In this document: piece by piece, positions 517 through 51,252 of the stretch
How positions within the stretch are numbered: position 1 is the first letter of the stretch
Layout: each line of letters opens with the position of its first letter
Source of the DNA: Rhodocyclaceae bacterium
GTDB taxonomy: Bacteria; Pseudomonadota; Gammaproteobacteria; Burkholderiales; Rhodocyclaceae
Direction of reading: 5' to 3'
Length of the DNA stretch: 56,988 nucleotides
NCBI GenBank assembly: GCA_011391215.1
Contig: JAABQX010000070.1
Span: 1 to 56,988 of the forward strand
Position numbers and translations under genes: made by a program
Notes under the pieces: model-generated
What the model saw: only the letters and a program-made list of their open reading frames with translations
What the model was told of the DNA's origin: nothing
The model's database searches: none

Positions 517-1860
517 TTACGCTGCGTGCCCAAGTACGCTGCGTGCCGCAAGCACGGCGCGGGCGGCAATCACGGCGCGTGCCGCCGCGACGCCGCTGCG
601 CACGGCGCCTTCGAGGGTGGATGGGTAATCACCCGCCACAAAGTCGCCGGCCAGCCAGACATTTGGGCAAGCGGTCGCCGTGGGCGGCCGGGCGAGGTTT
701 GGCGTACAGGCAAATGTGGCGCGTTTGTCCTCGATCACCCAGTGACGGGTCGGCGGTTTCAGGCCGGGAAGCAACACAGCAATTTCGGCGTGGATGGCCT
801 GCGCCAATTCGGTATGACTTAGCTCCTGCCAGGGGCCGGCGCCGCTGATGACTGCCGCGATGAGGCCGTGCTGGCCGCACAATGCGCCGCGGTCGAACAG
901 CCATTGGGCATAGCGGCCATCAACGCCGGACATCGCAAAGGGCAGGCGCACGGAGGCCGGGTAGGCGAGATAGGCGGTGGCGATCGGCTGCCATTGCACG
1001 CCGTTGAGTTGCCCGCTGAGGGTGTTAAATTCAGGATGCGGGGCGATCAGGAGCGGCAGATGGTAGGGCGCGGTGGCCAGCACGAGTTGGTCGTAGGGGC
1101 CGTGGCTTTCTTTTGCGTGTGCCGTCCAGCCAGTCCCACAGGGATTCCCTTCGGTCACGCCGACTTTTTTCAATTGTCCGATGCGTGTCGCGCGGATGAC
1201 TTGTCCGCCATGCGCGGCGATGTAACGCGCCGCTGGCTCGGGAAACAGCTGCGAAAAATCGGTAACCGGCAGCAGCAGGTCGGATGCAGCGCGATCGGCG
1301 GCGAGGCTGTCGCGCAGCACGTTGAGAAACACCTGCGCCGAGGCGATGGCTACCGGTGTATTCAGTGCCGCCAGACAGAGCGGCTCCCAGAGGAAGCGGC
1401 GCAGGCGCGGTGGCTGGTTGGCGATCAGCTGCCTGGCGGTGATGTCGCGCGGCAAGCGGAAGCGGGCCTTTTTGAGCGCGCGCATGAAGCGGATGGCGGC
1501 GAACTTTTCTGAAAATGTCAGGCCTTCTGCTGTAAGCAGCGCCCAGACCAGATGCCAGGGGGCCGGTAGACGAGGCGCGACCAGTTTCATGTGCCCGGGA
1601 AATTCAAGGTGCAATGGCTGGCGTTTTAGTGCCGTCTGGCCAGCACCGACTTTTTCCATCAGCCGCAGGGTTTCCCGATACGCACCGACGAGAATGTGGG
1701 CGCCGTTGTCGACGGTCATGCCATCAAGCTCGACGGCGCGTGCCCGTCCGCCCAGCGTGCGCGAAGCTTCAAAAACATCCACCGCGACGCCTGCGTCGGC
1801 CAGTTCGACGGCGGCGGCCAGTCCTGCGTAGCCAGCGCCAATGATCGCAACACGACTCAT
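517..1860 (-). CDS. hpnE: Hydroxysqualene dehydroxylase HpnE (squalene-associated FAD-dependent desaturase)
   Basis: This flavoprotein reduces hydroxysqualene to squalene, the last step of the three-enzyme HpnCDE route from farnesyl diphosphate. The 447-residue product opens with a Rossmann FAD motif, GAGYAG at residues 8-13, followed by an acidic residue at the end of the second strand (VFEAS). The C-terminal FAD signature WLAGDFVAGDYPSTLEGAVR is characteristic of amine-oxidase-like desaturases. Its ATG overlaps the hpnD stop by four bases, so the three genes form one translationally coupled operon. The last 25 residues are an imperfect Ala/Arg/Val repeat (ARAVIAARAVLAARSVL), matching a direct repeat in the DNA, and look like a lineage-specific extension. 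The family assignment is firm. Confidence 0.93.
   Translation of the reverse strand: MSRVAIIGAGYAGLAAAVELADAGVAVDVFEASRTLGGRARAVELDGMTVDNGAHILVGAYRETLRLMEKVGAGQTALKRQPLHLEFPGHMKLVAPRLPAPWHLVWALLTAEGLTFSEKFAAIRFMRALKKARFRLPRDITARQLIANQPPRLRRFLWEPLCLAALNTPVAIASAQVFLNVLRDSLAADRAASDLLLPVTDFSQLFPEPAARYIAAHGGQVIRATRIGQLKKVGVTEGNPCGTGWTAHAKESHGPYDQLVLATAPYHLPLLIAPHPEFNTLSGQLNGVQWQPIATAYLAYPASVRLPFAMSGVDGRYAQWLFDRGALCGQHGLIAAVISGAGPWQELSHTELAQAIHAEIAVLLPGLKPPTRHWVIEDKRATFACTPNLARPPTATACPNVWLAGDFVAGDYPSTLEGAVRSGVAAARAVIAARAVLAARSVLGHAA
518..547. repeat. 13-bp direct repeat in the hpnE 3' end
   Basis: TACGCTGCGTGCC occurs at 518-530 and again at 535-547. It sits inside the final codons of hpnE and helps to encode its Ala/Arg-rich tail. 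It probably arose by local slippage duplication. Confidence 0.6.
1120..1170 (+). repeat. Interrupted copy of the dispersed 25-bp motif
   Basis: The left arm TGCCGTCCAGCCA lies at 1120-1132 and the right arm CCGACTTTTTT at 1160-1170. They are separated by 27 bases instead of the usual three. The extra 24 bases keep the hpnE reading frame. This is either an expanded copy or a chance pairing of two half-sites. Confidence 0.35.
1630..1655 (+). repeat. Dispersed 25-bp motif, copy 1 (inside hpnE)
   Basis: Left arm TGCCGTCTGGCCA, spacer GCA, right arm CCGACTTTTT. It lies in the coding region of hpnE, antisense to the gene. Confidence 0.6.
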
Positions 1861-2690
1861 GTGTTGAACCAGGTTTTGAGTGCCAGCCAGAGCTTGCGCG
1901 GTGGCGTCAGCGACGTGCGGCGATCCAGCACCAGGAAGTCGTCTTTCTCGATCTCGTCGAGCAGCGACTGGTAGATGGCCGCCATGATGAGTCCCGCGCG
2001 TTGCGCCTTGCGGTCGGTGGCGGGCAATTGGTCGAAGGCGCGCGCGTAGTGCGCACGCGCCCGCTTGGCCTGGAAGCGCATCAGGGCGACGAATGGCTCG
2101 CTGTGCCGGCTGTTCAGGATGTCATGTTCGCTGACGCCGAAGCGTGCGAGTTCTTCCAGTGGCAGATAAATGCGTCCCCGCCGGGCATCCTCGCCGACAT
2201 CGCGGATGATATTTGTGAGTTGGAAGGCGAGCCCGAGGGTGTGGGCATATTTCAGGGTATGGCGCTCGCTATAGCCGAAGATTTCGGCGGCCAGCAGGCC
2301 GACCACGCCGGCGGCGCGGTGGCAATACAGCTGCAGTTCCTTGAAGCTGGCATAGCGCGTCTGGTCGAGATCCATCTGCATGCCGTCAATGATTTCTGTC
2401 AGTTCCTCAACGGGCAGGGCGAAGCGTTGGCGCGCGGTAGCGAGGGATTGCGTGACCGGGTGGCTGGGCTGGCCGCCGTCGAGTGTGCCTAGTTCGGCGC
2501 GCCACCAGTCGAGCTTGGCGCGGGCAATGGCGGGATCGCGGCACTCGTCGACCACATCGTCGACTTCACGGCAGAAGGCGTAGAGCGCAGTAATGGCCTG
2601 GCGGCGCTGCGCGGTAAGGAAGCGAAAGCTCAGGATGAAGCTTGAGCCGCTTGCCTTAGCTTTTTGGGTGCAGTAGGCATCTGGGCTCAT
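1857..2690 (-). CDS. hpnD: Presqualene diphosphate synthase HpnD
   Basis: This enzyme condenses two farnesyl diphosphates into presqualene diphosphate, the first step of HpnCDE squalene synthesis. The 277-residue all-alpha prenyl synthase has both Asp-rich magnesium/diphosphate-binding motifs: DDVVDE at residues 44-49 and DVGED at 164-168, the latter followed by GRIYLP, typical of the squalene/phytoene synthase family. Its length fits the family. The start overlaps the hpnC stop and the end overlaps the hpnE start, each by four bases. HpnC and HpnD are paralogues; I call this one HpnD from its position and its phytoene-synthase-like sequence. Confidence 0.92.
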   Translation of the reverse strand: MSPDAYCTQKAKASGSSFILSFRFLTAQRRQAITALYAFCREVDDVVDECRDPAIARAKLDWWRAELGTLDGGQPSHPVTQSLATARQRFALPVEELTEIIDGMQMDLDQTRYASFKELQLYCHRAAGVVGLLAAEIFGYSERHTLKYAHTLGLAFQLTNIIRDVGEDARRGRIYLPLEELARFGVSEHDILNSRHSEPFVALMRFQAKRARAHYARAFDQLPATDRKAQRAGLIMAAIYQSLLDEIEKDDFLVLDRRTSLTPPRKLWLALKTWFNT

Positions 2691-3505
2691 GGCAATGCGG
2701 CCTTCAGCAGGATGCGTGGCCAGTCGAACGCGCCGAGCACCGGACGATGGTTGAACACGTCGTAATCGACGGCCTCGATCTTGTCGAGAATGCGCAGCCC
2801 GCCGGCAACGATGGCGCGGATTTCCAAGCCGATACGGCCGGGCAGGTCGTGACCGAGCGAAGCGCCGGAAAGCATCAGGTTGCGAGCGCGGTCGACCTGA
2901 AAACGCATCAGTTCGCGAAAGTCGGCGCTGGCGGGATGGCTCTTCAATGTGTCGTCAGAGATGCTGAAGCGCGCCATTTCGTCCTGAGGCAGGTAGATGC
3001 GTCCATTTTGTCCCTTGGCAAGGTCGATGTCGACATCCTGCCAGTGATTGATGAGTTGCAGGGCGGAGCAGATGGCATCCGAACGTTGCAGATTGTCCGG
3101 CGTGGCGGCGTCGAAGAGGTGTAGCAGCAGGCGGCCGACAGGATTAGCAGAGCGCCGGCAGTAGTCCATCAACTCGTCAAAGCTGGCATAGCGATCTTTC
3201 ACCACATCCTGGGAGAAAGCGTCGAGCAGGTCACGGAACAGCTCCAGCGGCAGTTGATGCGCTGCAATATGTGGGCCCAGGCGTTGAAAGATCGGCTGAT
3301 CGGTCGGTTCACCGCGCTCGATGCGGTCAAGTTCGAGTTGGTATTCCGCCAGGAGGCGCTGGCGTTCGGCGGCTGGCAAGTCGCCCTCGTCGGCGAAATC
3401 ATCCGCCGAACGGGCAAACGCATAGATGGCGGCCACCGCCGGACGCAGCGGCGCCGGCAACAAGATCGAGGCAACGGGGAAGTTCTCGTAGTGATCGACA
3501 GCCAT
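2687..3505 (-). CDS. hpnC: Hydroxysqualene synthase HpnC
   Basis: This enzyme converts presqualene diphosphate to hydroxysqualene. The 272-residue product belongs to the squalene/phytoene synthase family. It has DDFADE at residues 35-40 and DVDID at 157-161, the second within the HpnC-like stretch NHWQDVDIDLAKGQNGRIYLP. It is the first gene of the hpnC-hpnD-hpnE operon, transcribed away from tRNA-Leu. No squalene-hopene cyclase lies in the window, so the later hopanoid steps must be encoded elsewhere if present. Confidence 0.92.
   Translation of the reverse strand: MAVDHYENFPVASILLPAPLRPAVAAIYAFARSADDFADEGDLPAAERQRLLAEYQLELDRIERGEPTDQPIFQRLGPHIAAHQLPLELFRDLLDAFSQDVVKDRYASFDELMDYCRRSANPVGRLLLHLFDAATPDNLQRSDAICSALQLINHWQDVDIDLAKGQNGRIYLPQDEMARFSISDDTLKSHPASADFRELMRFQVDRARNLMLSGASLGHDLPGRIGLEIRAIVAGGLRILDKIEAVDYDVFNHRPVLGAFDWPRILLKAALP
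2916..2940 (-). repeat. Dispersed 25-bp motif, copy 2 (inside hpnC)
   Basis: Read on the minus strand: left arm GCCATCCCGCCA, spacer GCG, right arm CCGACTTTCG. It lies on the coding strand of hpnC and encodes SHPASADFRE. Confidence 0.55.
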
Positions 3506-3585
3506 CGGGCGGCAGTATAGGTGCGATTCCGCTAAAATCCGCGATCACTCGCGCGAGCTGAATCTTACCGTCAGGCTGCGCAAGT

Positions 3586-3670
3586 GCCCGGGTGGCGAAA
3601 TTGGTAGACGCACCAGATTTAGGTTCTGGCGCCGCAAGGTGTGGGGGTTCGAGTCCCTTCCCGGGCACCA
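3586..3670 (+). tRNA. tRNA-Leu (anticodon UAG)
   Basis: An 85-base cloverleaf with acceptor arms GCCCGGG and CCCGGGC, encoded CCA at 3668-3670, a long variable arm as expected for class II tRNA-Leu, and TAG in the anticodon loop between CCAGA and TCTGG. It lies between the divergent hpnC and hisG genes. Confidence 0.97.
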
Positions 3671-3713
3671 CATTGATTTTCAATTACTTCTGAAGTTTCG
3701 CGAACTTACGACT

Positions 3714-4595
3714 ATGACCGCGCCACATAAATTACGTTTGGGCATCCCGAAGGGTAGCCTGCAGGATACAACCCAGAAACTTTTCGACCTTGCCGGCTTC
3801 GACCTGCGCATTTCGGGTCGCTCTTATTATCCGGGCATCGATGATCCCGAGATCGAATGCATCCTGATTCGTCCCCAGGAAATGGCCCGCTATGTGGGGC
3901 AGGGGATTCTGGACTGCGCCATCACCGGGTTGGACTGGATATTGGAGACCGGCGCCGATGTGGCGGAACTGGCTGATCTGCGCGCACCCTGGCCCAACTA
4001 TGGCGTGGTGCGCTGGGTGATGGCGGCGAAGGAGGAATCGCCCTTCCAGTCTGTGAAGGATCTGCAAGGCAAGCGTATTGCCACCGAAACGGTCGGCATG
4101 ACCCGGCGTTTTCTGGAACAGCATGGCGTGACCGCCGAGGTAGAGTTTTCCTGGGGCGCCACGGAGGTCAAGCCGCCGATTCTGGCGGATGCCATCGTTG
4201 ACGTTTCCGAGACGGGCTCTTCCCTGCGCGCCAATAACCTCAAGGTGCTACATGTGGTGCTGGAAAGTACTCCGCGTTTCATCGCCAATCACCAGTCGCT
4301 GACCGATGCATGGAAACAGGGCAAGACCGACCGCCTGCTGATGTTGCTCAAGGGGGCGATTGCTGCCGCGACTCGCGTCCTGTTGTCGATGAATGTACCG
4401 CGTGCGAGTCTGGACGAAGTGCTGAAAATCCTGCCGGCGCTGGCCGCTCCGACGCTTTCTACCCTGGCAGACCCCGATTGGGTGGAACTCAGCACGGTGG
4501 TGGAAGAAAAGCTCGTGCGCGAACTGATTCCCCGACTTTACCAAGCCGGCGCGCGCGGCATCATTGAATTGCCCATCAACAAGATCGTCGAATAA
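3714..4595 (+). CDS. hisG: ATP phosphoribosyltransferase, long form
   Basis: This enzyme joins ATP and PRPP in the first committed step of histidine synthesis. I choose the ATG at 3714, which gives 293 residues starting MTAPHKLRLGIPKGSLQ; the frame extends further upstream into the tRNA but without a credible start. The N-terminal catalytic region carries the PKGSL substrate motif, and a PRPP-loop-like segment (DVSETGSSLRANNL) follows. The last 75 or so residues form the HisG C-terminal regulatory domain. Most betaproteobacteria use a short HisG of about 215 residues plus HisZ, and no hisZ or other his gene is adjacent. The protein resembles long forms from other phyla, which suggests transfer. 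Confidence 0.9.
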   Translation: MTAPHKLRLGIPKGSLQDTTQKLFDLAGFDLRISGRSYYPGIDDPEIECILIRPQEMARYVGQGILDCAITGLDWILETGADVAELADLRAPWPNYGVVRWVMAAKEESPFQSVKDLQGKRIATETVGMTRRFLEQHGVTAEVEFSWGATEVKPPILADAIVDVSETGSSLRANNLKVLHVVLESTPRFIANHQSLTDAWKQGKTDRLLMLLKGAIAAATRVLLSMNVPRASLDEVLKILPALAAPTLSTLADPDWVELSTVVEEKLVRELIPRLYQAGARGIIELPINKIVE

Positions 4596-4792
4596 TCTTC
4601 AGAAACGGGTTCTGAAAGCATCAGAAAGCCACGTTTTCCTTTTCTCACTAACATTTCGGCTGGTTTTACGGTGATAAAATTCATTTTCCGCAAGCGAGAA
4701 TGAACCACGAGGCAAGGCTTCAGGCTTTGCTCGTCAGGTATCCAGGCAACCACCACCCCGATTTTAATTTAGCTTCATTTCAAGGATTTTTC

Positions 4793-6126
4793 ATGGAAAC
4801 GACTCAGGAAACCGCCGTTACTCAGACCACTACTGAGGCCGCTCCCCCCAGTGCATTGGAACGCCGCATCGAAATGACCGTGGCGCTGTCCGATATCGAA
4901 CGCGAGGTGGAACAGCAACTTAAGCGGATGGCCAAGAGCACCAAGGTGGCGGGGTTCCGTCCCGGCAAAGTGCCCATGAAAATGGTGGCGCAGATGTATG
5001 GCCAGCAGGCACGCTCCGAAGCCATCGGCGCGGCAATCGAAAAATCCTTCGGTCAGACAGTACGCGAACAGAATCTGCGCGTGGCCGGTCAGCCGCGTAT
5101 CGAACCCAAGCCTGCCGGCACCGAAGGCCAGATGGATTTCACCGCCATTTTCGAGGTTTTCCCGGAGTTCAAGGTTGCTGACATTGGTGGTCGCGCGATC
5201 GAAAAACCCGTATTGTCAGTCGGCGATGCCGAGGTCGATAAGACCATCGAAGTCTTGCGCAAGCAGCGCACTACCTATTCCGTCGTCACGCGTGCCGCCG
5301 AGACGGGCGATCGTCTGGTGATCGACTTTACCGGCCGTCGCAATGGCGAGGCTTTCGATGGCGGAACTGCAAAAGATTATCCTGTCTTCGTCGGCGGCGG
5401 CATGATGCTGCCAGATTTCGAGGTGGCCCTGCAAGGCGTTACCGCCGGCCAGGAAAAAGTTTTCGATGTGGTTTTTCCTGATGACTATCACGCCAAGGAT
5501 CTGGCGGGTAACACGGTGCAATTCACCGTCCAGGTCAAGTCTGTCGAAGCGCCGCAACTCCCGGCGGTCGATGCCGACTTCGCCCGTTCGCTGGGGATTG
5601 CCGACGGTGATACCGGCAAGATGCTCGCCGAAGTGCGCAGTAATCTCGAGCGTGAAGTCGCCAAGCGCCTGCGCGCGCGCATCAAGGAGCAGGCGATGGA
5701 TGCGCTGCTCGAAACCAATCCGATCGACGTACCCAAGGCCATGGTGGAGGTCGAGGCGCAGCAGATGGCTGACAAAGCCCGCCAGGATCTGGAAGGGCGC
5801 GGCGCGCAGATGAAGAATATTCCCGTCGATGCCAGCTGGTTCACCGATCAGGCAGCGAAGCGCGTACGCCTCGGTTTGATCGTTGCCGAACTCGTCAAAG
5901 ACAAGGACCTGCATGTGAAGCCTGAGCAGGTGCGTGCCGTGGTCGATGATTTTGCCGCCACCTTCGAAGATCCGAAGGAAGTGGTTCGTTGGTATTACAG
6001 CCAGCCCCAGCGCCTCGCCGAGGCCGAAGCGCTGGCCATGGAAAACAATGTTGTCGACTGGGTGCTGGCTAACGCCAAGGTCACCGACAAAGACGTTGCT
6101 TTTGACGAACTGATGGGAAATCAGGC

Positions 6127-14240: not shown

Positions 14241-15341
14241 ATGTCACGTCCTATTCGCGCCACCATCAACCTTGCCGCACTGCGGCACAATTTCGGCATT
14301 GCCCGCCTTCACGCCGGTGCGGCAAAGCTCTGGAGCGTTGTCAAGGCGAATGCCTATGGCCACGGTCTTGAGCGTGTTGTGCATGCCCTGGCTGATATTA
14401 CCGATGGGTTTGCACTCATCGAGGTGGAGCGCGCCGTGCAGTTGCGCCAGGCAGGCCTTGACGTGCCGATCCTGATGCTCGAAGGCTTTTACGCGCCCAA
14501 CGAATTGCCGCTGTTCATCGCGCATCGCCTGATTCCCGTGCTGCACCGGATCGACCAGGTGCAACAACTGCTCGGGGCTGGTTGGCCGACAGACCTTCCT
14601 GTCTATTTGAAGCTCGATAGCGGCATGCATCGGCTGGGCTTCGATGTTGTCGGACTCAAGGCAGCCAGAACCGCACTGACGGGCAAGGTGGCGAAGCCAA
14701 CCCTTATGACCCATTTTGCCGATGCTGACGGGCCGCGCGGTGTGGATTGGCAACTGGAACGCCTGGCTGCCATGACTGCCGGCATGGACGATCCGCGCTC
14801 GCTGGCCAATTCGGCGGCCTTGTTGCGCTATCCGCATGCCATCGGTGACTGGGCGCGCCCCGGCATCATGCTCTATGGCGGGTCGCCGTTTCCGAAAATG
14901 CGTTCAGCTCCTGAGCTTGACCTCCAGCCGGTGATGACGCTGCAAAGCGAAATCATCGCCGTGCAATCGCTTGATACCGGTGAAAGCGTCGGCTATGGCT
15001 GCACTTTTACTGCGGATCGGCCGATGCGGGTCGGCGTGGTGGCCTGTGGTTACGCTGACGGATATCCGCGCCATGCGCCGACCGGCACGCCGGTGCTGTT
15101 GGATGGGCAACGCAGCCGACTCCTTGGCCGTGTTTCGATGGACAAGTTATGCGTCGATCTCACGCATCTGCCGCAAAAAGTCGGCGTTGGCGGGACGGCG
15201 ACCCTGTGGGGCCGGGCGGTGGCGGGTGAGGGGAGGGATAGCGTCTTGCCAGCCGACGAAGTGGCTACGGCGGCCGGCACGATCAGTTATGAACTTTTCT
15301 GCGCGCTGTCATCGCGCGTACCGGTCAGCGAGATTCACTGA
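14241..15341 (+). CDS. alr: Alanine racemase
   Basis: This PLP enzyme interconverts L- and D-alanine for peptidoglycan. I choose the ATG at 14241 (366 residues, starting MSRPIRATINLAALRHN) because homologues start this way. In-frame ATGs at 14223 and 14232 are also possible, and no start has a strong ribosome site. The PLP lysine is Lys35 in WSVVKANAYGHG; the catalytic tyrosine lies in the GYGCTF segment and the PLP phosphate-binding region is near CGYADGYPR. It ends two bases before radA and is probably co-transcribed with it. The coding region contains a copy of the dispersed motif at 15174-15199. Confidence 0.95.
   Translation: MSRPIRATINLAALRHNFGIARLHAGAAKLWSVVKANAYGHGLERVVHALADITDGFALIEVERAVQLRQAGLDVPILMLEGFYAPNELPLFIAHRLIPVLHRIDQVQQLLGAGWPTDLPVYLKLDSGMHRLGFDVVGLKAARTALTGKVAKPTLMTHFADADGPRGVDWQLERLAAMTAGMDDPRSLANSAALLRYPHAIGDWARPGIMLYGGSPFPKMRSAPELDLQPVMTLQSEIIAVQSLDTGESVGYGCTFTADRPMRVGVVACGYADGYPRHAPTGTPVLLDGQRSRLLGRVSMDKLCVDLTHLPQKVGVGGTATLWGRAVAGEGRDSVLPADEVATAAGTISYELFCALSSRVPVSEIH
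15174..15199 (-). repeat. Dispersed 25-bp motif, copy 3 (inside alr)
   Basis: Read on the minus strand: left arm GCCGTCCCGCCA, spacer ACG, right arm CCGACTTTTTG. It is antisense to alr. Confidence 0.6.
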
Positions 15342-16723: not shown

Positions 16724-19209
16724 TGCGTCTGACATTGCGCATGTTGTTGCGCGACTTACGTGCCGGCGACTTGACCGTGCTCGGTTTGGCGCTGGTGCTG
16801 GCGGTGGCGGCGCTTACCAGCGTCGGTTTTCTGGCCGACCGTGTCGAACGGGCTGTGGCGCATGAGGCGCACCAGCTGCTCGGCGGCGATCTGCTGCTGA
16901 CGGCGGATCATCCCTGGCCGGACAGTTATCGCGAGGCTGCCAGGGAACAGGGATTGCGGCTCGCGGAAAGCGTCAGTTTCCCCAGCATGGTGGCCAGCGC
17001 GGCAGACAATGGCGGTGTGCATCTGGCCGAAATCAAGGCGGTTTCGGCAGGTTATCCGTTGCGTGGGACGATGCGTACTGCGCCCCGGCTAAATGTCGGC
17101 GATGGCGAGACGGCAACCGTGCCTGCGCAGGGAACGGTCTGGCCCGATGAGCGTCTCGCGACAACGCTCGCTGCCGACAGTGGCGCACGGTTGCGACTCG
17201 GGGAACTGACGGCGGATGTGGCGGCGATCATCACGCTGGAGCCGGATCGCGGTATCAATCCATTTGCTCTGGCACCCCGGCTCATCATCAACCTGGCGGA
17301 TCTGCCGACGACGCGCCTGATCCAGCCGGGCAGCCGCGTCAGTTGGCGCCTGCATGTGGCGGGCGAAAGCCCCGCGGTCGAGGCGTTCCGCCAATGGGTG
17401 AGCGCCCGTTTGGGCCGCGGCGAAAAGCTCGAAAGCCTGGACAATGCCCGTCCGGAAATCCGCAACATTATCGAGCGCGCGCAGCGCTTTCTGCGCCTCG
17501 CGGCCTTGCTGACCGGGGTGCTGGCCGCCGTAGCGGTCGGCATGGCGGCGCGCCGTTACATGCAGACGCATCTCGATGCCTGCGCCGTGATGCGTTGCCT
17601 GGGGGCGAGCGAGCGGCAGATTCTGTTCATTCACGGTGGGGAATTCATCCTGCTGGGGTTGGCGGCGACACTGGCCGGCGGCGTGCTCGGCTATCTCGGC
17701 CAGGCGGGCCTGCACAAGATGCTGGCCGGCTTGCTGGCCGAACAATTGCCTGCACCGGGGGGCATGCCCTGGGTGCACGGGTTCGCCGTGGGGGTGGTGC
17801 TGGTAGCGGGTTTCGTGCTCCCGCCGCTGTTGCGCCTCAAGGCGGTGCCGACGGTACGTGTACTGCGGCGTGAGTGGGGCGGGGTGGCGCCCCTGTCTGT
17901 TGTTTCATACCTGATTGGCCTGGGTTGCCTGGCTGGGCTGATATTGTGGATGGCCGGCGATATTCGTCTGGGCAGCGTGGTGTTGGGCGGCTTCATGGTC
18001 GCGGTCGCCGTTTTTGCACTGGTGGGTCAGGGGCTGCTGACACTCACGGGGCGCTTGCCATCGAGCCTGCTGTCTGGCGGCTGGCGTATCGGCCTGGCCA
18101 ACTTGCGGCGCCACTCCGGTACCACGCTGGTGCAGGTCGTGGCACTGGCGCTCGGCCTGACCTCGTTACTGATCCTTTCTCTGGCGAGGAATGATCTGCT
18201 GTTGGCCTGGCAGGCAAAAGTACCGGCTGACGCCCCCAACCGTTTTCTCATCAATATCCAGCCCGAACAGCGTCCCGCCATCGCCGACTTTTTTGTGCAA
18301 CGGGGATTGCCCGCGCCGCGTCTCGAGCCCATGGTGCGCGGCCGCCTGACGAGTGTGAATGGCCGTAAGGTGAATCCGCAAGACTTTGTCGAAGAGCGCG
18401 CCCAACGTCTGGTCGATCGCGAATTCAATCTGTCGAGTCGCGATGACCTGCCTGCCGGCAACCAGGTGATTGCCGGTCGCTGGCCTGCATCCGGCGGCGG
18501 TGTGCAGTTTTCGGTGGAAAAGGGGCTGGCGGAAACGCTCAACCTGCACGTCGGCGACGAGTTGCTATTCGATATTGCCGGCCAGCCCCTGGTTGCCCGC
18601 ATCACCTCGTTGCGCAAGCTCGAATGGGATTCGATGCGCGTCAATTTCTTCGTCATTGCGCCGGCCGGCAGCATGGATGAACAGCCGACCAGTTTCATTA
18701 CCAGTTTTCACCTGCCCCCCGGCCAGGAGACGACCATCAGTGATCTGGTGCGGCAGTTCCCGAACCTCACCGTGATCGACGTGGCGGCACTGGTGCGGCA
18801 ACTTCAGACCACGCTCGACCAGGTGGCGCGTGCCGTGCAACTGGTTTTCGGTTTTTCCTTGCTGGCCGGCCTGGTGGTGCTGTATGCGGCTTTGCAGGCG
18901 AGTGCCGGAGAACGCAACCATGAACTGGCGGTGTTGCGTGCCCTCGGGGGGCGGCGGCGTCAGTTGCATCAGGCGCTGTTTGCGGAATTCGCCACGCTCG
19001 GCGCGATCGCCGGCCTGCTCGCTGGTCTTTGCGCCACGGCCATCGGCACGGCGCTGGCGCGCTGGGTATTCGATCTTGATTACCTGCCGACCCCTGATTT
19101 GCTGCTGGTCGGCGTGCTTGCCGGATTGGCGGGGGTGGCACTGGCGGGACTGGCGGCAACACGCCAGGCGCTCTCAGGCCGGGTGATCGAAGCTCTGCAG
19201 GGAGGGTGA
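16723..19209 (+). CDS. ABC transporter permease of the FtsX/YbbP family
   Basis: The open frame runs back inside radA, but the ATG at 16723, coupled to the radA stop, gives 828 residues starting MRLTLRMLLRDLRAG. That matches the family N-terminus. The architecture is one N-terminal transmembrane helix, a large periplasmic domain, two FtsX-type membrane blocks (near residues 260-430 and 700-820) and a second periplasmic domain between them. Relatives work with a YbbA-type ATPase in lipoprotein or lipid-linked export. No ATPase gene is adjacent, so the partner must be encoded elsewhere. The coding region holds a copy of the dispersed motif at 18269-18294. Confidence 0.85.
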   Translation: MRLTLRMLLRDLRAGDLTVLGLALVLAVAALTSVGFLADRVERAVAHEAHQLLGGDLLLTADHPWPDSYREAAREQGLRLAESVSFPSMVASAADNGGVHLAEIKAVSAGYPLRGTMRTAPRLNVGDGETATVPAQGTVWPDERLATTLAADSGARLRLGELTADVAAIITLEPDRGINPFALAPRLIINLADLPTTRLIQPGSRVSWRLHVAGESPAVEAFRQWVSARLGRGEKLESLDNARPEIRNIIERAQRFLRLAALLTGVLAAVAVGMAARRYMQTHLDACAVMRCLGASERQILFIHGGEFILLGLAATLAGGVLGYLGQAGLHKMLAGLLAEQLPAPGGMPWVHGFAVGVVLVAGFVLPPLLRLKAVPTVRVLRREWGGVAPLSVVSYLIGLGCLAGLILWMAGDIRLGSVVLGGFMVAVAVFALVGQGLLTLTGRLPSSLLSGGWRIGLANLRRHSGTTLVQVVALALGLTSLLILSLARNDLLLAWQAKVPADAPNRFLINIQPEQRPAIADFFVQRGLPAPRLEPMVRGRLTSVNGRKVNPQDFVEERAQRLVDREFNLSSRDDLPAGNQVIAGRWPASGGGVQFSVEKGLAETLNLHVGDELLFDIAGQPLVARITSLRKLEWDSMRVNFFVIAPAGSMDEQPTSFITSFHLPPGQETTISDLVRQFPNLTVIDVAALVRQLQTTLDQVARAVQLVFGFSLLAGLVVLYAALQASAGERNHELAVLRALGGRRRQLHQALFAEFATLGAIAGLLAGLCATAIGTALARWVFDLDYLPTPDLLLVGVLAGLAGVALAGLAATRQALSGRVIEALQGG
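18269..18294 (+). repeat. Dispersed 25-bp motif, copy 4 (inside the permease gene)
   Basis: Left arm AGCGTCCCGCCA, spacer TCG, right arm CCGACTTTTTT, on the coding strand; it encodes RPAIADFF. Confidence 0.55.
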
Positions 19210-24140: not shown

Positions 24141-24165
24141 AAAAGTCGGCGCTGGCGGGACGGCA
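24141..24165 (-). repeat. Dispersed 25-bp motif, copy 5 (fumA-murI spacer)
   Basis: Read on the minus strand: left arm TGCCGTCCCGCCA, spacer GCG, right arm CCGACTTTT. It begins two bases after the fumA stop codon and ends one base before the murI ATG, so it is effectively the whole intergenic spacer. Confidence 0.65.
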
Positions 24166-28584: not shown

Positions 28585-28610
28585 CGCCGTCTCGCCACCA
28601 CCGACTTTTT
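28585..28610 (+). repeat. Dispersed 25-bp motif, copy 6 (intergenic)
   Basis: Left arm CGCCGTCTCGCCA, spacer CCA, right arm CCGACTTTTT. It lies 17 bases after the acs terminator and outside any gene I can support. Confidence 0.6.
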
Positions 28611-29419: not shown

Positions 29420-29444
29420 CGCTGTCCCGCCAGTGCCGACTTTA
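29420..29444 (+). repeat. Dispersed 25-bp motif, copy 7 (intergenic)
   Basis: Left arm CGCTGTCCCGCCA, spacer GTG, right arm CCGACTTTA. It lies between two converging small genes. Confidence 0.55.
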
Positions 29445-39683: not shown

Positions 39684-39714
39684 ATTTTGATTATCGCCCC
39701 CACGTGCCAGAAAA

Positions 39715-41020: not shown

Positions 41021-41028
41021 TCATCGTG

Positions 41029-41433
41029 ATGAGTCCCCGTTTCGCGATTCCCGATCACGAAATCGAGATTTCGGCGATCCGTGCCCAAGGTTCCGGCGGC
41101 CAGAACGTCAATAAGGTCTCGAATGCCGTTCATCTGCGTTTTGACATCAACGCATCCTCATTGCCTGAGGTTATCCGTGAGCGGCTCCTGAAACTCGGCG
41201 ATCAACGCATCAGCAAGGACGGCGTAATTATCATCAAGGCACAGGAATTCCGCAGCCTTGAGGGAAATCGTGCTGAAGCGCTTCGGCGCTTGCATGACAT
41301 GATTGACAGTATTGCCGTTCTGCCCAAACGGCGCCGCCCCACCAAACCCACCCGGGGATCCGTCGCGCAGCGCCTGGAAAGCAAGACCCGACGAGCATCG
41401 GTCAAGGCAGGAAGAGGAAAAGTCAGTGAGTAA
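41029..41433 (+). CDS. arfB: Alternative ribosome-rescue factor B (peptidyl-tRNA hydrolase)
   Basis: ArfB (YaeJ) releases peptides from ribosomes stalled without a stop codon. The 134-residue product from the ATG at 41029 has the catalytic GGQ in [14 protein letters not shown] and a basic C-terminal tail ([26 protein letters not shown]) that inserts into the mRNA channel. It begins after the methyltransferase stop with an eight-base gap; a TTG at 41017 is less likely. Confidence 0.93.
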
Positions 41434-41488
41434 TGAAGGCCGATTCCAGAATCGCACGCATTCGTCAGGTACGTTGTCTGTCGTGCGG

Positions 41489-41809
41489 ATGCAAATGCAA
41501 TCACGTTTCTCGATGCTGTTGGCTGTGCTCATGCTGCTTGGTTGCACGTCAGCACAGATCGAAACAGAAGCCGCCGGCGAGCGCCGGGTTAGTTTTGTTT
41601 GTGGCAACGGAGACAACGTGGAAATGCGCTTCTTCCCCCTGCGAAGGGAAGCCGTCCTGGTCCGGCATGGCGAGGCCATAAAACTCCAGCAGCAACCGTC
41701 GGGATCCGGATTCATCTACAGCAACGGCCCGAATACGGTTCGCGGCAAAGGGGAAGAAATCATGATCGAGATTGGCCGCATGGTGCCGATCAAATGCCAG
41801 GCGCGCTAG
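41489..41809 (+). CDS. MliC-like lipoprotein (C-type lysozyme inhibitor family)
   Basis: The 106-residue product from the ATG at 41489 has a lipoprotein signal (MLLAVLMLLGCTS, lipobox LLGC). The MliC-type domain follows (VSFVCGNGDNVEMRFFP, IKLQQQPSGSGFIYSNG, MVPIKCQ) with a conserved Cys pair. Members sit in the outer membrane and block host or environmental lysozyme. The ribosome site is poor, so an earlier start cannot be excluded. Confidence 0.75.
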   Translation: MQMQSRFSMLLAVLMLLGCTSAQIETEAAGERRVSFVCGNGDNVEMRFFPLRREAVLVRHGEAIKLQQQPSGSGFIYSNGPNTVRGKGEEIMIEIGRMVPIKCQAR

Positions 41810-41825
41810 CCGGAATCCATCAATT

Positions 41826-41935
41826 TCATCGGTGCTGCTCGATTTCTCCGAAGCAAGGGCTGTAGCGTTATGGCACCCGATCAACGATGGTGTGATGGGT
41901 GCCGTCTCGCCAGAGCCGACTTATTGCCCTGACCA
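41826..41935 (+). pseudogene. Remnant of a CIA30-like gene N-terminus
   Basis: A plus-strand frame here reads SSVLLDFSEARAVALWHPINDG and then VMGAVS. This is close to the start of CIA30-family proteins, which typically read LDF, a variable stretch, and NDGVMGGVS. Similarity ends at once and is replaced by a copy of the dispersed motif and unrelated sequence. No start codon or full domain remains, so I call a truncated remnant. The frame stays open for another 180 bases without family similarity. Confidence 0.5.
41900..41924 (+). repeat. Dispersed 25-bp motif, copy 8 (in the CIA30-like remnant)
   Basis: Left arm TGCCGTCTCGCCA, spacer GAG, right arm CCGACTTAT. It lies exactly where similarity to CIA30 stops. 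Confidence 0.55.
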
Positions 41936-42013
41936 TCATGGCTTGGTTGATGCTGCGCTGCGTCGATCGAGCGTCGTGAAAAATTCGAACGAACCAATCA
42001 CAAACAAGAAAAC

Positions 42014-42766
42014 ATGGAAATCTATCTCGCCGGCCCTGACGTCTTTCGTCCCGATGTCCTCGAGTGGGCCGAATCGGCCCGTGAAACCTGCCGTCGTTAC
42101 GGCTACGAACCCCTGATCCCCATCGACCATGGTGAAACTGAGGCACACCGGATCTTCCAGGCCAACCTCGACCTGATCCTCAAGGCGCAGATCGTCGTCG
42201 CCAACTTGAACCCGTTTCGCGGAGCCGAGCCGGATTCGGGAACCTGCTTTGAGCTGGGATACGCCCTGGCGCTGGACAAGAAAGTCTGCGGGTACGTCGA
42301 TCGGTTGGAGACGCTCCAGTCGCGGGTCAATCGTATTGAGGGTGGTGATCCGGCAAGAACCCATGATAACCACGGCATGCTCATCGAGAACTTCAACCTG
42401 CCCCTGAACCTGATGCTGGCCGTGCCGACCATGATCGTCGAGGGTTGTCTTGAGGTGTGTCTGAAGAACTTGCGGGGTGAGTCTAGGGAAACTTCGGTAC
42501 CGAGAACGAATCTGCCCGAAAATACAGTCGCCAGGAACTGTATCGAGTCAGCGATCCGCTACCTGCGCTGGGTGGCCGACGGAAAGATTACCGATGCGAA
42601 CCCCGTTGCCAGCGTAGCCGATCAATACAAAGTCAGGGAAGAGACCGTGCGGGCGTGGATCGATGCCTGGTCAGGCATTTCGCTGGCATCGCACGCCGAT
42701 TACCGGTCTGACGACGTTGCACACCAGATGAAAATCAGCGGCCGGCAGTTCAGAAGCCTCAGTTAA
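42014..42766 (+). CDS. Nucleoside 2-deoxyribosyltransferase with an extra C-terminal helical domain
   Basis: Residues 1-150 are a nucleoside 2-deoxyribosyltransferase domain (MEIYLAGPDVFRPDVLEWAE; FRGAEPDSGTCFELGYALAL with the probable catalytic Glu). Members swap bases between deoxynucleosides or hydrolyse modified nucleotides. About 100 more residues follow, including CIESAIRYLRWVADGK and ASVADQYKVREETVRAWIDAW. This part looks like an HTH and is not part of the normal 150-residue enzyme. The fusion may couple nucleoside chemistry to DNA binding, which is inference. The ATG has no strong ribosome site. Confidence 0.75.
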   Translation: MEIYLAGPDVFRPDVLEWAESARETCRRYGYEPLIPIDHGETEAHRIFQANLDLILKAQIVVANLNPFRGAEPDSGTCFELGYALALDKKVCGYVDRLETLQSRVNRIEGGDPARTHDNHGMLIENFNLPLNLMLAVPTMIVEGCLEVCLKNLRGESRETSVPRTNLPENTVARNCIESAIRYLRWVADGKITDANPVASVADQYKVREETVRAWIDAWSGISLASHADYRSDDVAHQMKISGRQFRSLS

Positions 42767-42833
42767 GCGAAGCCAGCCGGGGACTCGAGAAGCGGTAGCA
42801 TATAGCCATCATTTGCACGTTCCAAAATCCATC

Positions 42834-43058
42834 ATGATTACTGTCGTTATCGCCCTCATCCTCTTGGTCGTCGCCGTCGGCGCCATTTATCTGATCCTCA
42901 AGAACATGGGAGAAGAGGGCGTCGAAGTGGCCGCCCCGGGAAGCTGCAAGAGCGGGCGATGTGGGGTACGCTCCTCTCCCGTGACCGAAGCGCATGACTA
43001 CCAAGAAGATGAACCGCTTGATAACGATGAAGCGGTCAAGCGCAAGGAAACCGTTTGA
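42834..43058 (+). CDS. Small membrane protein with a Cys-containing tail
   Basis: The 74-residue product from the ATG at 42834 has one N-terminal transmembrane helix (ITVVIALILLVVAVGAIYLI). A short cytoplasmic or periplasmic segment follows with CKSGRC and an acidic tail. Small proteins of this layout accompany metal or redox systems in some genomes, but I do not recognise a family. It closes the same-strand block. Confidence 0.55.
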   Translation: MITVVIALILLVVAVGAIYLILKNMGEEGVEVAAPGSCKSGRCGVRSSPVTEAHDYQEDEPLDNDEAVKRKETV

Positions 43059-43228
43059 ACGGTTGGGTCATTTCCAGCAACAGGGCGGCCATCGCGACCT
43101 GCAACGAGAAAGTCCCGGTGGTGGTGCTGGCGATGCCAGGTTCGATGAACTGGTCGCTTCTCCAATTGTTGGAGTATCAGGACATGTTTCGATACTCACC
43201 CTTGTCGATTATTGCTAGTGTTGTGTAA
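43055..43228 (+). CDS. Possible 57-residue ORF coupled to the membrane protein
   Basis: A TTG at 43055 overlaps the previous stop by four bases and opens a frame containing NGWVISSNRAAIATCNEK and VPVVVLAMPGSMNWSLLQ, ending at TAA 43226-43228. The composition looks protein-like. However, the start is weak, and the tRNA-His promoter -10 box begins at the stop codon. It could be a remnant and not an expressed gene. Confidence 0.3.
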   Translation: MNGWVISSNRAAIATCNEKVPVVVLAMPGSMNWSLLQLLEYQDMFRYSPLSIIASVV

Positions 43229-43231
43229 AAT
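43202..43231 (+). promoter_or_regulatory. Probable promoter of tRNA-His
   Basis: The -35 box TTGTCG at 43202-43207 and -10 box TAAAAT at 43226-43231 are 18 bases apart, 33 bases before the tRNA. Confidence 0.6.
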
Positions 43232-43263
43232 GAGCGTTCGTTGTGTAGCAATGTTTGGGCAGT

Positions 43264-43340
43264 GGTGGCTGTAGCTCAGTTGGTAGAGTCCGGGATTGTG
43301 ATTCCCGTTGTCGTGGGTTCGAGCCCCATCAGCCACCCCA
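43264..43340 (+). tRNA. tRNA-His (anticodon GUG)
   Basis: The cloverleaf has acceptor arms GTGGCTG and CAGCCAC, the extra G(-1) at 43264 opposite C73 that marks tRNA-His, anticodon GTG in TTGTGAT, and encoded CCA at 43338-43340. An integrase gene begins 88 bases downstream in the usual tRNA-element arrangement. Confidence 0.97.
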
Positions 43341-43427
43341 AAAATTTTCAGTCTAGTCAAATAGTTACGACTGGCGAGACTTCTCTGAAGTCTTTATTTA
43401 CACACTTCTTACACAGAGAGGTGTTGT

Positions 43428-44172
43428 ATGGCTTCAATTCAACGTAGGAAGTCCGGCTACCAAGTTCAGGTGCGTCGGCAAGGTTTCCCTGTTGCTTCTG
43501 GCATGTTCGAGTCCCGTAAAGAGGCTGAAGCATGGGCTAGGGAAATCGAGTCCGAGATGGATCGGGGTATCCACGTATCCCGCAAGGAGGCAGAGAGTAC
43601 AACGCTGCTCGAAGCCCTTGATCGGTACGAGATCGAGATCACCAGTACCAAGCGGGGCGCACCACGAGAACGGTATCGGATCGCCCACTGGCGCAAGCAA
43701 CCACTGGCATGCCGCTACTTGGCCTCTATACGCTCTCAGGACGTTGCACAGTACCGAGATGGGAGGGGTTGGCTCAGGTCGGCTCAACTCAGACGGTACG
43801 GCTTGAATTGGGGCTGCTGTCACACGTATTCACCATCGCCATCAAGGAATGGGGCATGGAAGGGCTGCGAAATCCGGTTGCCTCGATCCGTCTGCCCAAG
43901 CCACCCCTTGGCCGTGACAGGCGCATCCATGCAGGTCGAGAGGTCGAGCCAGACGAACTGGAAGCCATCATCGCCTCAACCTCATCAACGCAGCTGCCGG
44001 CCATCATTCGGCTGGCTGTCGAGACTGCCATGCGACGGAGTGAAATCATCAGGTTGACATGGGATCAAGTCGACTTGAATCGCCGGATGGTGATGCTGCA
44101 TCAAACGAAAAACGGGGATCGGCGTATCGTCCCGCTCACGACTCGTGCGGTCGAAATCTTTCGGGGCATTCC
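43428..44172 (+). pseudogene. Tyrosine integrase, frameshifted and cut off by an IS3 element
   Basis: The N-terminal arm-binding part (ASIQRRKSGYQVQVRRQGFP, FESRKEAEAWAREIESEMDRG) is in one frame. Near 43755-43770 the sense moves to another frame, continuing LAQVGSTQTVRLELGLLSHVF and the catalytic domain with the first Arg box (AVETAMRRSEIIRLTWDQVDL). The gene ends at the left terminus of the IS (VEIFRGIPESP), so the HxxR and Tyr boxes are lost. It lies 88 bases after tRNA-His and once served an element inserted there. Confidence 0.85.
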
Positions 44173-44222
44173 TGAATCGCCCCGGGATTTGAGGAGGCTC
44201 CTTAATCTGAGAAGATGGAGCC

Positions 44223-44542
44223 ATGAACAAATTGAACCGTTTTTCCCCTGAAGTACGCGCTCGCGCAGTGCGCATGGTGCAAGAGCAGCGCAAAGATCAC
44301 CGTTCCCTGTGGGCAGCCATCGAATCGATAGCGCCGAAGATTGGCTGTGCTGCCCAGACCCTGCATGAATGGGTACGCAAACACGAAATTGACAGTGGTA
44401 TGCGAGACGGCATCAGCGGTGAAGAGCGTGATCGCATCAAGGCGCTGGAACGCGAGGTCAAGGAACTGCGCAAGGCCAACGAAATTCTGAAGCTGGCGAG
44501 CGCGTTTTTTGCCCAAGCGGAGCTCGACCGCCGGCTCAAGTC

Positions 44543-44546
<4 letters not shown>
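44223..44546 (+). CDS. IS3-family transposase OrfA
   Basis: A 107-residue HTH_Tnp_1-type protein that binds the IS ends. It has the HTH near residues 10-50 ([30 protein letters not shown]) followed by a leucine-zipper-like helix ([21 protein letters not shown]). Its end overlaps the orfB ATG by four bases. A run of six T's near 44505-44511, within the segment encoding ASAFFAQ, could be the slippery site for the OrfAB frameshift usual in this family. Confidence 0.9.
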
Positions 44547-45457
<911 letters not shown>

Positions 45458-45525
45458 ACTGTATAGCCTCCACGAAACCCGGGGCGATTCATACAGGCTG
45501 TCTGTGAAGTGGGCTGGACCGTTTT

Positions 45526-46414
45526 TCACAGCCACGCCCTCCCGACGCTCTCGCGCAACGAATCGATGTTCTGGTGGCTGTAGCGCAGCGCCATGCTCAT
45601 CGTTTTGTGATTTAAGGCCTGCATGATCGTGATGGTGCTGGCGCCGCTCTGGGCAAGCACGGAGGCGGCGATATGGCGACAATGGTGGAAGGTCCAGTCG
45701 GTCGGTAGATCCGCCAGCTTGAGCGCGTTATGAAAAGCCACCTTGGCAGCCATTACCGAAGACCAGATCGCCTGCCTCAGCGCGTTCTGGCTTGATCCTG
45801 CGCAGTTCGTCGGCAACCCAAGACAGCAGCGGCGTGCGGTGTGGCGTGCCGTTCTTGGTGCGCTGGGTGTCGGCGAAGCCTTCCTTGAGGTTCAACTGTC
45901 CCCAGGTCAAGCCTTGCAGAGTGCCGCGCCGCCATCCTGTGGTGCAGGCCATCGCCACCAGTGCGGCCAGCTTGCGATTGCGCGAGATGCGACAAGCAGC
46001 CGCCAACCGGCGCACATCGCCGACGGTCACGGTCAAGGTGCGTCCTTCGCCCTCCTCCATGCGAATGACGCCACGCAACGGACTGACGAATCCACGGGGC
46101 AGTTTTCTGGCCTTCCTCAGTTCGCGGATGATGCTGCCAAAATTGGTGATGTAGCGATTGACGGTGCCCGGCGTGATCGGCTTGCCTGACGGGATGCGGA
46201 CAATGCCGTTCTTGGTGGTCAGGATGTTTTCTTTTGGCTTGGCGGCCAGGTCATCGAAGGCATCCTCGATATCCTCGGTCGTAATGTCGGTGATATCCCG
46301 ATCGCCGAAGCGTTCGATCCAGAAACGGGACCGTGCGGCGAATGCGTTGTCGCGATCATTGCGGGACGCGAGAATACCCTCAGCCAACAATCTGAAATTA
46401 CGTGTTGTTTCCAT
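45526..46414 (-). pseudogene. Second tyrosine integrase, frameshifted
   Basis: Read on the minus strand from the ATG at 46414: the N-terminal core-binding domain (RSRFWIERFGDRDITDITTEDIEDAF, here in two helices) and the first catalytic Arg (CTTGWRRGTLQGLTW). Near 45745 the frame ends as GNGCQGGFS. The other frame continues FHNALKLADLPTDWTFHHCRH with the HxxR box and the nucleophile in MALRYSHQN, ending at 45526. One base explains the shift. It starts 87 bases from the 3' end of tRNA-Arg and reads away from it, so it served a different element inserted at tRNA-Arg. Confidence 0.85.
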
Positions 46415-46444
46415 CTTCGTATCTCCTAAAACACCTCAGAAGGA

Positions 46445-46466
46445 ACCGATGGTTTTGTCCATCGGT
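46445..46466. repeat. Perfect inverted repeat between integrase and tRNA-Arg
   Basis: ACCGATGG and CCATCGGT flank a 6-base loop, TTTTGT. There is no T-run on either side, so it is not a typical terminator. Its place between the integrase and the tRNA 3' end suits an attachment-site arm or processing signal. Confidence 0.55.
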
Positions 46467-46500
46467 ACTTTCCGTCGGAAACGGTGTTCCTGGTTGATAC

Positions 46501-46577
46501 TGGTCCGCCCGGCGAGACTCGAACTCACAACCCCCGGCTTAGAAGGCCGGTGCTCTATCCGGTTGAGCTACGGGCGG
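46501..46577 (-). tRNA. tRNA-Arg (anticodon UCU)
   Basis: A 77-base cloverleaf on the minus strand with acceptor arms CCGCCCG and CGGGCGG, anticodon TCT in CTTCTAA between CCGGC and GCCGG, a T loop in GAGTTCGAGTCTC, and encoded CCA at the 46501 end. Its 3' end faces the frameshifted integrase. Confidence 0.96.
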
Positions 46578-46608
46578 CCCGTCAAGCGGTTTCGGCGATG
46601 CAGGCGTC

Positions 46609-46685
46609 TGGTCGGGGTGAAAGGATTCGAACCTTCGACATCTTGCTCCCAAAGCAAGCGCGCTACCGGGCTGCGCTACACCCCG
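46609..46685 (-). tRNA. tRNA-Pro (anticodon UGG)
   Basis: A 77-base cloverleaf on the minus strand with acceptor arms CGGGGTG and CACCCCG, anticodon TGG in TTTGGGA between CTTGC and GCAAG, GGTTCGAATCC in the T arm, and encoded CCA. It lies 31 bases upstream of tRNA-Arg and is probably co-transcribed with it. Confidence 0.96.
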
Positions 46686-46797
46686 AAGGGAAGGCATTCT
46701 ACTGATCGGATATTTCGCGGTCAATGACAAGCTGTAAAAACTTGCGGCATCCTCCTGTTTCGTTTATAACGTCGTCTTTTTGCCGAGCGGATAAAAG

Positions 46798-50840: not shown

Positions 50841-51241
50841 TGCTCCCGGTTGTCGGCCACCGCGTCGGCAGCCACAACCTCATCGATCAGGCGCGACAGG
50901 CGTGTGCCGCGCTCGACGGAGGCATCGAAAGTAAAGTGCAGCTCGGGGATATGATGAATGCGCAAGCGCCGGCCAAGTTCTCGCCGCAAAAAGCCGGCGG
51001 CTTGCTTCAGTCCCTTGGCAATTTCTGCTGCGCGATCCGCTTCCGCAAGCGATGTGTAAAAAACCTTGGCGTGGGTGTAATCGGCGGTAATTTCCACGTC
51101 CGTGATGGTCACAAGCGGCAACAAATGCGCCACGCGCGGATCTTTCACCTGCCGCAGCAATTCCGAGAGATCGCGACGGATCTGCTCGGTAATGCGGTCG
51201 GTACGCGCAAAGCCATGCGCGCTGGATTGCCGTGTCGCCAT
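50837..51241 (-). CDS. rbfA: 30S ribosome-binding factor A
   Basis: This is a late 30S maturation factor and cold-shock protein with a KH-like fold. The 134-residue product contains RTDRITEQIRRDLSELL, VTITDVEITADYTHAKVFYT and the AAGFLRRELGRRLRIHHIPELHF stretch typical of the family, here spread over two helices and a strand. The ATG lies inside a copy of the dispersed motif (51227-51252) and no clear Shine-Dalgarno sequence precedes it. The gene is 21 bases after infB and overlaps truB. Confidence 0.95.
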   Translation of the reverse strand: MATRQSSAHGFARTDRITEQIRRDLSELLRQVKDPRVAHLLPLVTITDVEITADYTHAKVFYTSLAEADRAAEIAKGLKQAAGFLRRELGRRLRIHHIPELHFTFDASVERGTRLSRLIDEVVAADAVADNREQ

Positions 51242-51252
51242 CGCCGACTTTT
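51227..51252 (+). repeat. Dispersed 25-bp motif, copy 9 (rbfA start region)
   Basis: Left arm TTGCCGTGTCGCCA, spacer TCG, right arm CCGACTTTT, followed by TACC. It covers the rbfA start codon and the infB-rbfA spacer. Confidence 0.6.

Follow-up and report, generated by a model that had tools for sequence, protein, structure and literature searches.

Two bacterial families, the Neisseriaceae and the Pasteurellaceae, are named as the only ones known to select their own DNA at the uptake step, and the known uptake sequences are ca. 9-12 nt long, with the uptake signal sequence (USS) having a GCGG core within AAGTGCGGT or ACAAGCGGT (PMC12616744, a 2025 paper). The neisserial DNA uptake sequence (DUS) has a 5'-CTG-3' core in all dialects, reaches 2245-5918 copies depending on the dialect, occupies permissive locations and forms inverted pairs at terminators; its dialects are congruent with the core-genome tree, and some family members have no DUS at all (PMC3630211). 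Two further papers describe the DUS as established through recombination (PMC2397512) and known uptake sequences as showing an orientation bias within reading frames (PMC2346458). Here we describe a dispersed motif of 24-25 bp that was noticed in a stretch of 56,988 nucleotides from a Rhodocyclaceae bacterium (GCA_011391215.1, contig JAABQX010000070.1; the whole stretch is called the window below). As judged from sequence comparisons, this motif is quite probably a DNA uptake sequence, that is, a self-recognition tag for the DNA of its own lineage. No description of an uptake sequence in the Rhodocyclaceae was found in the open-licence literature.

When the window was scanned with the pattern TGCCGTCYCGCCANNNCCGACTTTT, allowing up to three mismatches, ten matches were obtained, against a mean of 0.00 and a largest value of 0 in 100 dinucleotide-preserving shuffles. 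The nine copies listed in the initial annotation are all real, with their starts off by 0-2 bases, and one copy (at 17091, reverse strand) had been overlooked. The claim of a frequency beyond chance therefore stands, as does that of copies lying on both strands in four coding genes and in spacers, since four genes contain five of the copies, and the other five are intergenic (four) or at the edge of a gene (one). The genome-wide count proposed as a check gave the same picture: the genome of origin (G000; 2,330,469 bases, 76% complete) has 280 forward and 243 reverse copies, 523 in all, at up to three mismatches, and the reversed-pattern control has 0.

Thirty exact copies were aligned with 40 bases of flank, and no conservation was seen outside the motif except for a weak preference for T, then C, after the T run. 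The motif is a 24-25 bp unit and not the border of a longer element, which the unconserved flanks rule out, and the 25-bp size given at first is thus confirmed. Two conserved blocks, GCCGTCYCGCCA and CCGACTTTT, are separated by a looser three-base gap. The gap bases had been called variable; they are indeed looser than the blocks beside them, but they are not free, GCG being preferred (26, 24 and 26 of the 30 exact copies at the three positions), and the Y position is C in 23 of 30. Position weight matrices from five genomes carry ~25-33 bits, and the motif contains no internal palindrome or inverted repeat.

The placement of the copies along a chromosome was analysed in G017, a complete one-contig congener of which 420 kb, or ~15% of the genome, were sampled; genes in this sample and in the window were called with an ad hoc hexamer caller. 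The sample holds 86 copies (45 and 41 on the two strands, 0 in the reversed sequence), or 79 clusters when copies less than 200 bp apart are merged, and the dispersion index over twenty evenly spaced 20-kb stretches is 0.95. Counted by strand, the replichores hold 17/18 copies (stretches 2-9, mostly positive GC skew) and 20/19 copies (stretches 10-19, mostly negative GC skew; p = 1.0), with stretches 0 and 1 left out and stretch 14, which carries a phage terminase and has a skew of the opposite sign, included. Sixty-one of the 86 copies lie in genes, 5 at edges and 20 wholly between genes, where 7.4 would be expected (a 2.7-fold excess, p = 3.6e-5); after merging, 18 of 79 are intergenic (p = 1.1e-4). 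The 19 intergenic copies with both neighbours called, two of which belong to one composite (see below), comprise 8 convergent, 10 tandem and 1 divergent cases, the expected numbers being about 4.2, 11.1 and 3.7. Genic copies occupy all six frames, unequally, with KVGAGGTA- or AVPPAPTF-like peptides the commonest; six frames with different peptides rule out a shared protein domain as the explanation, as the initial annotation had argued. The motif also occurs in prepilin-like genes, where it falls within the part that encodes the leader peptide and closely precedes the GFTLTE region; this is so both in G017 (L310, G017:C1 near 2361818), where it reads AVPPAPTF, and in G000 (L008).

Two of the twenty stretches are free of copies, one with rpoB and rpoC and the other with the phage terminase, that is, very constrained and foreign DNA (a post hoc observation on two stretches). 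The latter stretch (L254, G017:C1:1916111-1936110) carries the gene for the terminase large subunit (gpA) and is free of copies where the average stretch has 4, which as a single case fits a tag that is absent from foreign DNA. At five places in the G017 sample (Table 1) the motif and, after it, an inverted partial copy form a composite that recurs with a period of 54-56 bp. Called genes contain three of the five, the other two are at or in spacers, and none were seen in the sample of G000.

Comparison of orthologous sites indicated that the motif arises in place by point changes at most of the sites examined, one gene junction excepted. In the alanine racemase gene (alr), the same codons carry the motif, or a dialect spelling of it, in 14 of 18 congeners; G002 and G017 show 7 and 6 mismatches at unchanged length, and G004 and G006 have no recognisable motif. 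An extra in-frame stretch adjoins the site in G009, G015 and G016 and a few others differ by two codons; none of the 18 congeners compared lacks just the 25 bases. At the second site in the FtsX-type permease gene (18268), all 13 of 13 aligned relatives are ungapped and form a graded series, e.g. CAGCGTCCGGCCATCGCCGACTTTT, CAGCGCAGCGCCATCGGCGACTTTT and CAGCGCGCGGCCGTGACCGAATTCC. The spacer between the fumarase and racemase genes is tagged in seven of eight aligned relatives (G002, G003, G004, G007, G013, G014 and G017) and not in G006. Taken over all sites with at least two aligned relatives, 665 rows, which are non-independent because the same site was queried from several genomes, comprise 280 with the motif in place, 90 ungapped without it, 293 partly gapped and 2 fully gapped. 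Much of the partly gapped class is alignment noise in spacers, and both fully gapped rows come from a single gene junction.

It had also been asked whether relatives carry the same bases merely through conservation of the protein. At four-fold degenerate sites of alr the base is the same in 79 of 93 cases within the motif versus 1420 of 2935 elsewhere (p = 7e-13), while for the FtsX-type gene the values are 53 of 86 versus 2627 of 5147 (p = 0.06), both p-values being indicative only, given shared ancestry. In alr, then, the motif is kept beyond the need of the protein, and in the FtsX-type gene the corresponding signal is weak.

Spellings of the motif were read from samples of eleven genomes, and in the case of G099 from the listed places (genomes are denoted by G and genera by g). 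A common form, GCCGTNYCGCCAGCGCCGACTTTT, is found in G000, where the sample spelling is GCCGTCYCGCCAGCGCCGACTTTT, and, slightly altered, in sampled genomes of g2, g25, g54, g62 and g80. Of these, G102 (g2), G071 (g54), G133 (g62), G145 (g80) and G042 (g25) are near-identical to G000 and differ from it in the sixth base, the gap or the T run. In g1, the spelling of G017 is loosened at the seventh and last bases and that of G016 is GCCGCCYCGCCAGCGCCGAGTTTY. Both g27 genomes have GCCGTSCCGCCGGGACTGACTTTT, with the right half GGGACTGACTTTT; G078 (g61) has GCCGTMTCSCCAGCGTCGACTTTT, containing GCGTCGACTTTT, and G099 (g82) has GGCGTGTCGCCACGGCTGACTTTT, the g61 and g82 spellings coming from one genome each. 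There are about five clearly distinct spellings on one skeleton, and they appear to follow lineages in part; the two g27 genomes agree with each other and sit apart in a Lon tree. One dialect per genus is ruled out by the six genera that share nearly one spelling and by the several spellings within g1.

The motif is widespread in the genus, where 18 of the 19 genomes surveyed (the own genome included) have 101-715 copies, the exception being G006 with 1. In 395 genomes of the family, scanned with a slightly looser pattern, at least 100 copies were found in most sampled genomes of g1, g2, g25, g54, g62 and g80 and tens of copies in a few others, and several low counts turned out to be other spellings. 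A degenerate skeleton covering the spellings, GNCGYNYCNCCRNNRYYGASTTTT with one mismatch allowed, picked out 23 of 150 family genomes with 50 copies or more, which belong to ten genera (g1, g2, g25, g27, g39, g54, g61, g62, g80 and g82; in g39 one of two genomes reaches 50, with counts of 55 and 3). The remaining 127 genomes have at most 15 copies, and the controls at most 3 per genome. Among 386 genomes from other families of the order the highest count was 7, and in a sample of 369 genomes of the class, scanned with a stricter pattern, the own genome alone exceeded 2 copies. Among the matches listed (80 of 113 stretches), exact copies come mostly from records labelled Rhodocyclaceae or Rhodocyclales, Sulfuritalea, Sulfurisoma (at least one copy in Sulfurisoma sediminicola BSN1), Rugosibacter and, in one case, a Propionivibrio metagenome-assembled genome (MAG). 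A small number of records bear the names Thiobacillus, Azonexus, Tepidiphilus, Burkholderiaceae or Gammaproteobacteria, or a less precise label.

In the Lon tree (29 genomes, one gene), the tagged genera fall mainly in two supported clades within a larger, weakly supported clade that also contains two untagged genomes, G020 and G055, and g27 falls outside it. On this single-gene tree, the tag would have been gained either once, long ago, with later losses, or several times. The grouping of G006 with the tagged G017, together with its retained ComP_DUS pilin and pilE-type cluster, suggests that G006 has lost the tag, and a search of 136 kb of G006 for a replacement motif gave no word well above simulated sequence. 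A few exact copies, some of them several per contig, are present in genomes of untagged genera (G841, G935, G640, G610, G052, G089, G050, G160 and others) and may represent DNA transferred from tagged donors or MAG binning errors. Exact copies are also present in fifty IMG/VR stretches (L038-L087), with two per stretch in three cases; these stretches may come from prophages of tagged hosts or from host DNA binned as viral.

The abundance and dispersal of the motif, its presence in both orientations, its tolerance within genes and enrichment between them, its growth in place and its lineage-related spellings are what biased uptake followed by recombination would produce, and are the reason for regarding it as an uptake sequence. 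They also agree with what has been published on the neisserial DUS. In such a scheme, the type IV pilus would capture tagged double-stranded DNA through a minor pilin that binds it and would draw this DNA in; ComEC would pass one strand, and recombination would then replace the homologous stretch. Since DNA with a tag would enter more frequently, biased gene conversion could spread alleles in which a tag is acquired or becomes better, and tags would build up in place through point changes, evenly and in either orientation, at positions where they are compatible with protein function and regulation. Drift of the receptor would entail drift of the tag, giving rise to dialects in different lineages.

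ComEC was found in 119 of 121 family genomes. Of 30 genomes searched for a minor pilin of the ComP_DUS type, 28 have one. Since such pilins occur in tagged and untagged genomes alike, their presence alone proves nothing, and the specificity of a receptor would lie in the pilin sequence. G017 has a pilE-type cluster that encodes a minor pilin of the ComP_DUS family (42.8 bits against a cut-off of 27.3) and a GspH/FimT-type pilin. Across genomes, the mean net charge of the pilins is 1.7 over 15 tagged rows versus 0.3 over 15 untagged rows (two of these being second copies). With a little more reserve than for the uptake function itself, we consider it likely that the Rhodocyclaceae would be a third bacterial family with its own self-DNA recognition, using a 24-25 bp bipartite tag with about five dialects in ten genera that is read by a candidate minor pilin.

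A number of observations weigh against an uptake function. ComEC and the ComP_DUS-type pilin are equally common in untagged genera, the untagged congener G006 likewise possesses a pilE-type cluster and a pilin of the ComP_DUS type, and two tagged genomes, G000 (76% complete) and G078 (98%), gave no ComP_DUS match. The pilin charges of tagged and untagged genomes overlap in range, and a receptor hunt that covered ComEC, the N-methyl pilins of G017 and G006, Pfam searches of eight pilins, ComP_DUS in 30 genomes and pilin charge singled out none. Uptake or competence data for these mostly uncultured bacteria were not found. The orientation of genic copies relative to the reading frame (24 same versus 37 opposite) is not significantly biased, in contrast to known uptake sequences. 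The spellings do not correspond one-to-one with genera, and at one gene junction the spacers of tagged relatives are unequal in length and other relatives have no spacer, which is not pure substitution. Three differences from the neisserial DUS have to be added: the Rhodocyclaceae motif is bipartite and 24-25 bp long rather than ca. 9-12, it is rarer, with hundreds of copies rather than 2245-5918, and its spellings have no CTG core at one fixed position.

Of the three roles offered in the initial annotation, an uptake signal fits best and a protein-binding site is the main rival, an uptake sequence being itself protein-binding. The rival would be a chromosomal site bound by a protein of the nucleoid, of segregation or of division, for which sites would be required at intervals of a few kilobases, the spellings reflecting drift of that protein. 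The even, Poisson-like spacing in G017 and the length and information content of the motif (25-33 bits), which suit a high-affinity site, speak for it. However, strand or replichore polarity and gross clustering are absent in the 400-kb sample, so that a polar segregation signal is not supported; genic copies in all frames need a spreading force; and the absence of the motif from G006, with no replacement found in 136 kb, would be surprising for an essential chromosome system. We regard such a binding site as unlikely, yet worth keeping in view. Signals for recombination or replication of the Chi or FtsK-orienting polar sequence (KOPS) type are also over-represented and chromosome-wide, but the motif is far longer than such signals, and in the G017 sample its orientation does not depend on the direction of replication (17/18 versus 20/19), which makes this explanation highly improbable.

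A miniature mobile or repeat element, such as a miniature inverted-repeat transposable element (MITE) or an element like the repetitive extragenic palindromes (REP) or the Rickettsia palindromic elements (RPE), would spread by inserting ~25 bp, and the dispersal of copies through genes and spacers, the five periodic composites with their inverted partial copies, and the one junction at which some relatives have an extra spacer carrying the motif could all be read in this way. Against this, the motif has no inverted repeat, its flanks share nothing, full, partial and absent motifs occur mostly at constant length (as in the graded series of the alr and FtsX-type sites), and the whole motif is gapped in only 2 of the 665 non-independent rows, both from that junction; insertion, also among the roles first offered, is thus very unlikely. 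The GC-rich stretch ending in a T run recalls a transcription terminator or RNA element, and the two composites that were folded form strong hairpins (-41.6 and -38.9 kcal/mol, z -4.5 and -4.8). On the other hand, single copies, represented by two from the window, fold no better than shuffles (z 0.66 and -0.35), which rules out an RNA hairpin for single copies on the evidence of these two. Moreover, 61 of the 86 sampled copies, and three of the five composites, lie inside called genes, the copies on either strand, and we give this explanation even less credit than insertion. Finally, the most used frame reads a K[VIL]GAGxTA-like peptide that is tolerated in flexible loops, as might be expected if codon usage or a conserved peptide lay behind the motif; the zero counts in shuffles and reversed control, which rule out chance or composition, together with six frames of different peptides and the intergenic enrichment, leave practically no room for it.

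The copies in the window and the composites of G017 are listed in Table 1. Between tRNA-Asn (29911) and a phage-integrase-type gene (45728-46414, reverse strand) adjoining tRNA-Arg, the window has a region of low coding score (~30000-46700) with helicase and Toprim domains, which holds one motif copy and is perhaps a decaying integrated element.

Table 1. Motif copies in the window and composite repeats in the G017 sample
Feature	Position	Strand	Mismatches	Context
Motif copy	1630..1654	+	1	In amine-oxidase-like gene 517-1860 (-), Pfam PF01593
Motif copy	2917..2941	-	3	In squalene/phytoene synthase gene 2687-3505 (-), PF00494
Motif copy	15176..15200	-	1	In alanine racemase gene (alr) 14196-15341 (+)
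Motif copy	17091..17115	-	1	In FtsX-type permease gene, called 16717-19209 (+), PF02687
Motif copy	18268..18292	+	3	Second copy within the FtsX-type permease gene
Motif copy	24141..24165	-	0 (exact)	Short spacer between fumarase gene 24168-25703 (-), PF05681, and the following racemase gene, PF01177, murI-like
Motif copy	28585..28609	+	1	Downstream of acetyl-CoA synthetase-like gene 26471-28501 (+), PF16177/PF00501
Motif copy	29420..29444	+	3	Between called genes
Motif copy	41900..41924	+	1	Spacer in low-coding stretch ~30-47 kb
Motif copy	51228..51252	+	1	Just downstream of IF-2 gene 51263-53971 (-, by IF-2 domains); overlaps first bases of next called open reading frame, classed as edge
Composite, G017	L247 14258-14390
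Composite, G017	L253 2254-2333
Composite, G017	L255 3086-3166
Composite, G017	L257 16345-16477
Composite, G017	L259 13642-13720

If the motif is indeed an uptake sequence, a third system of this kind, in environmental bacteria, would mean that sequence-gated bacterial sex evolves more widely, and its greater length would be useful for studying DNA recognition by a pilin. The spellings form a natural series, to which a genus member without the tag (G006) can be added, and stray exact copies in untagged genera might label transferred DNA.

Among described systems, the DUS of the Neisseriaceae is similar in its many dispersed copies in genes and spacers, its several dialects and its untagged family members, and both groups are betaproteobacterial; the Rhodocyclaceae are nevertheless another family, and the neisserial DUS has the ComP receptor. 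The letters TGCCGTC are common to the Rhodocyclaceae motif and to the neisserial AT-DUS, and on a speculative view both betaproteobacterial systems might go back to one ancient ancestor. The USS of the Pasteurellaceae is likewise a genome-wide tag with few types, and in Haemophilus influenzae (Hin-USS) it extends past the core into A/T tracts. The other strand of our motif begins AAAAGTCGG, which superficially resembles AAGTGCGGT, but it has no GCGG core in the USS context, is GC-rich and belongs to an unrelated family. Chi, KOPS, matS and parS are also short motifs found chromosome-wide, and are shorter than our motif, clustered or strand-polarised; the G017 sample shows no such pattern. The five composites of motif and inverted partial motif, two of which form hairpins when folded, recall the inverted DUS pairs of the Neisseriaceae (PMC3630211). 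They differ from these, and from REP and bacterial interspersed mosaic elements (BIME), in making up 5 of 79 clusters in one genome, with three of the five genic, and in that single copies are not palindromic. Taken together, the motif is not a DUS because it has no fixed CTG core and not a USS because it has no GCGG core in context, and from its sequence characteristics it probably represents a kind of uptake sequence outside both families.

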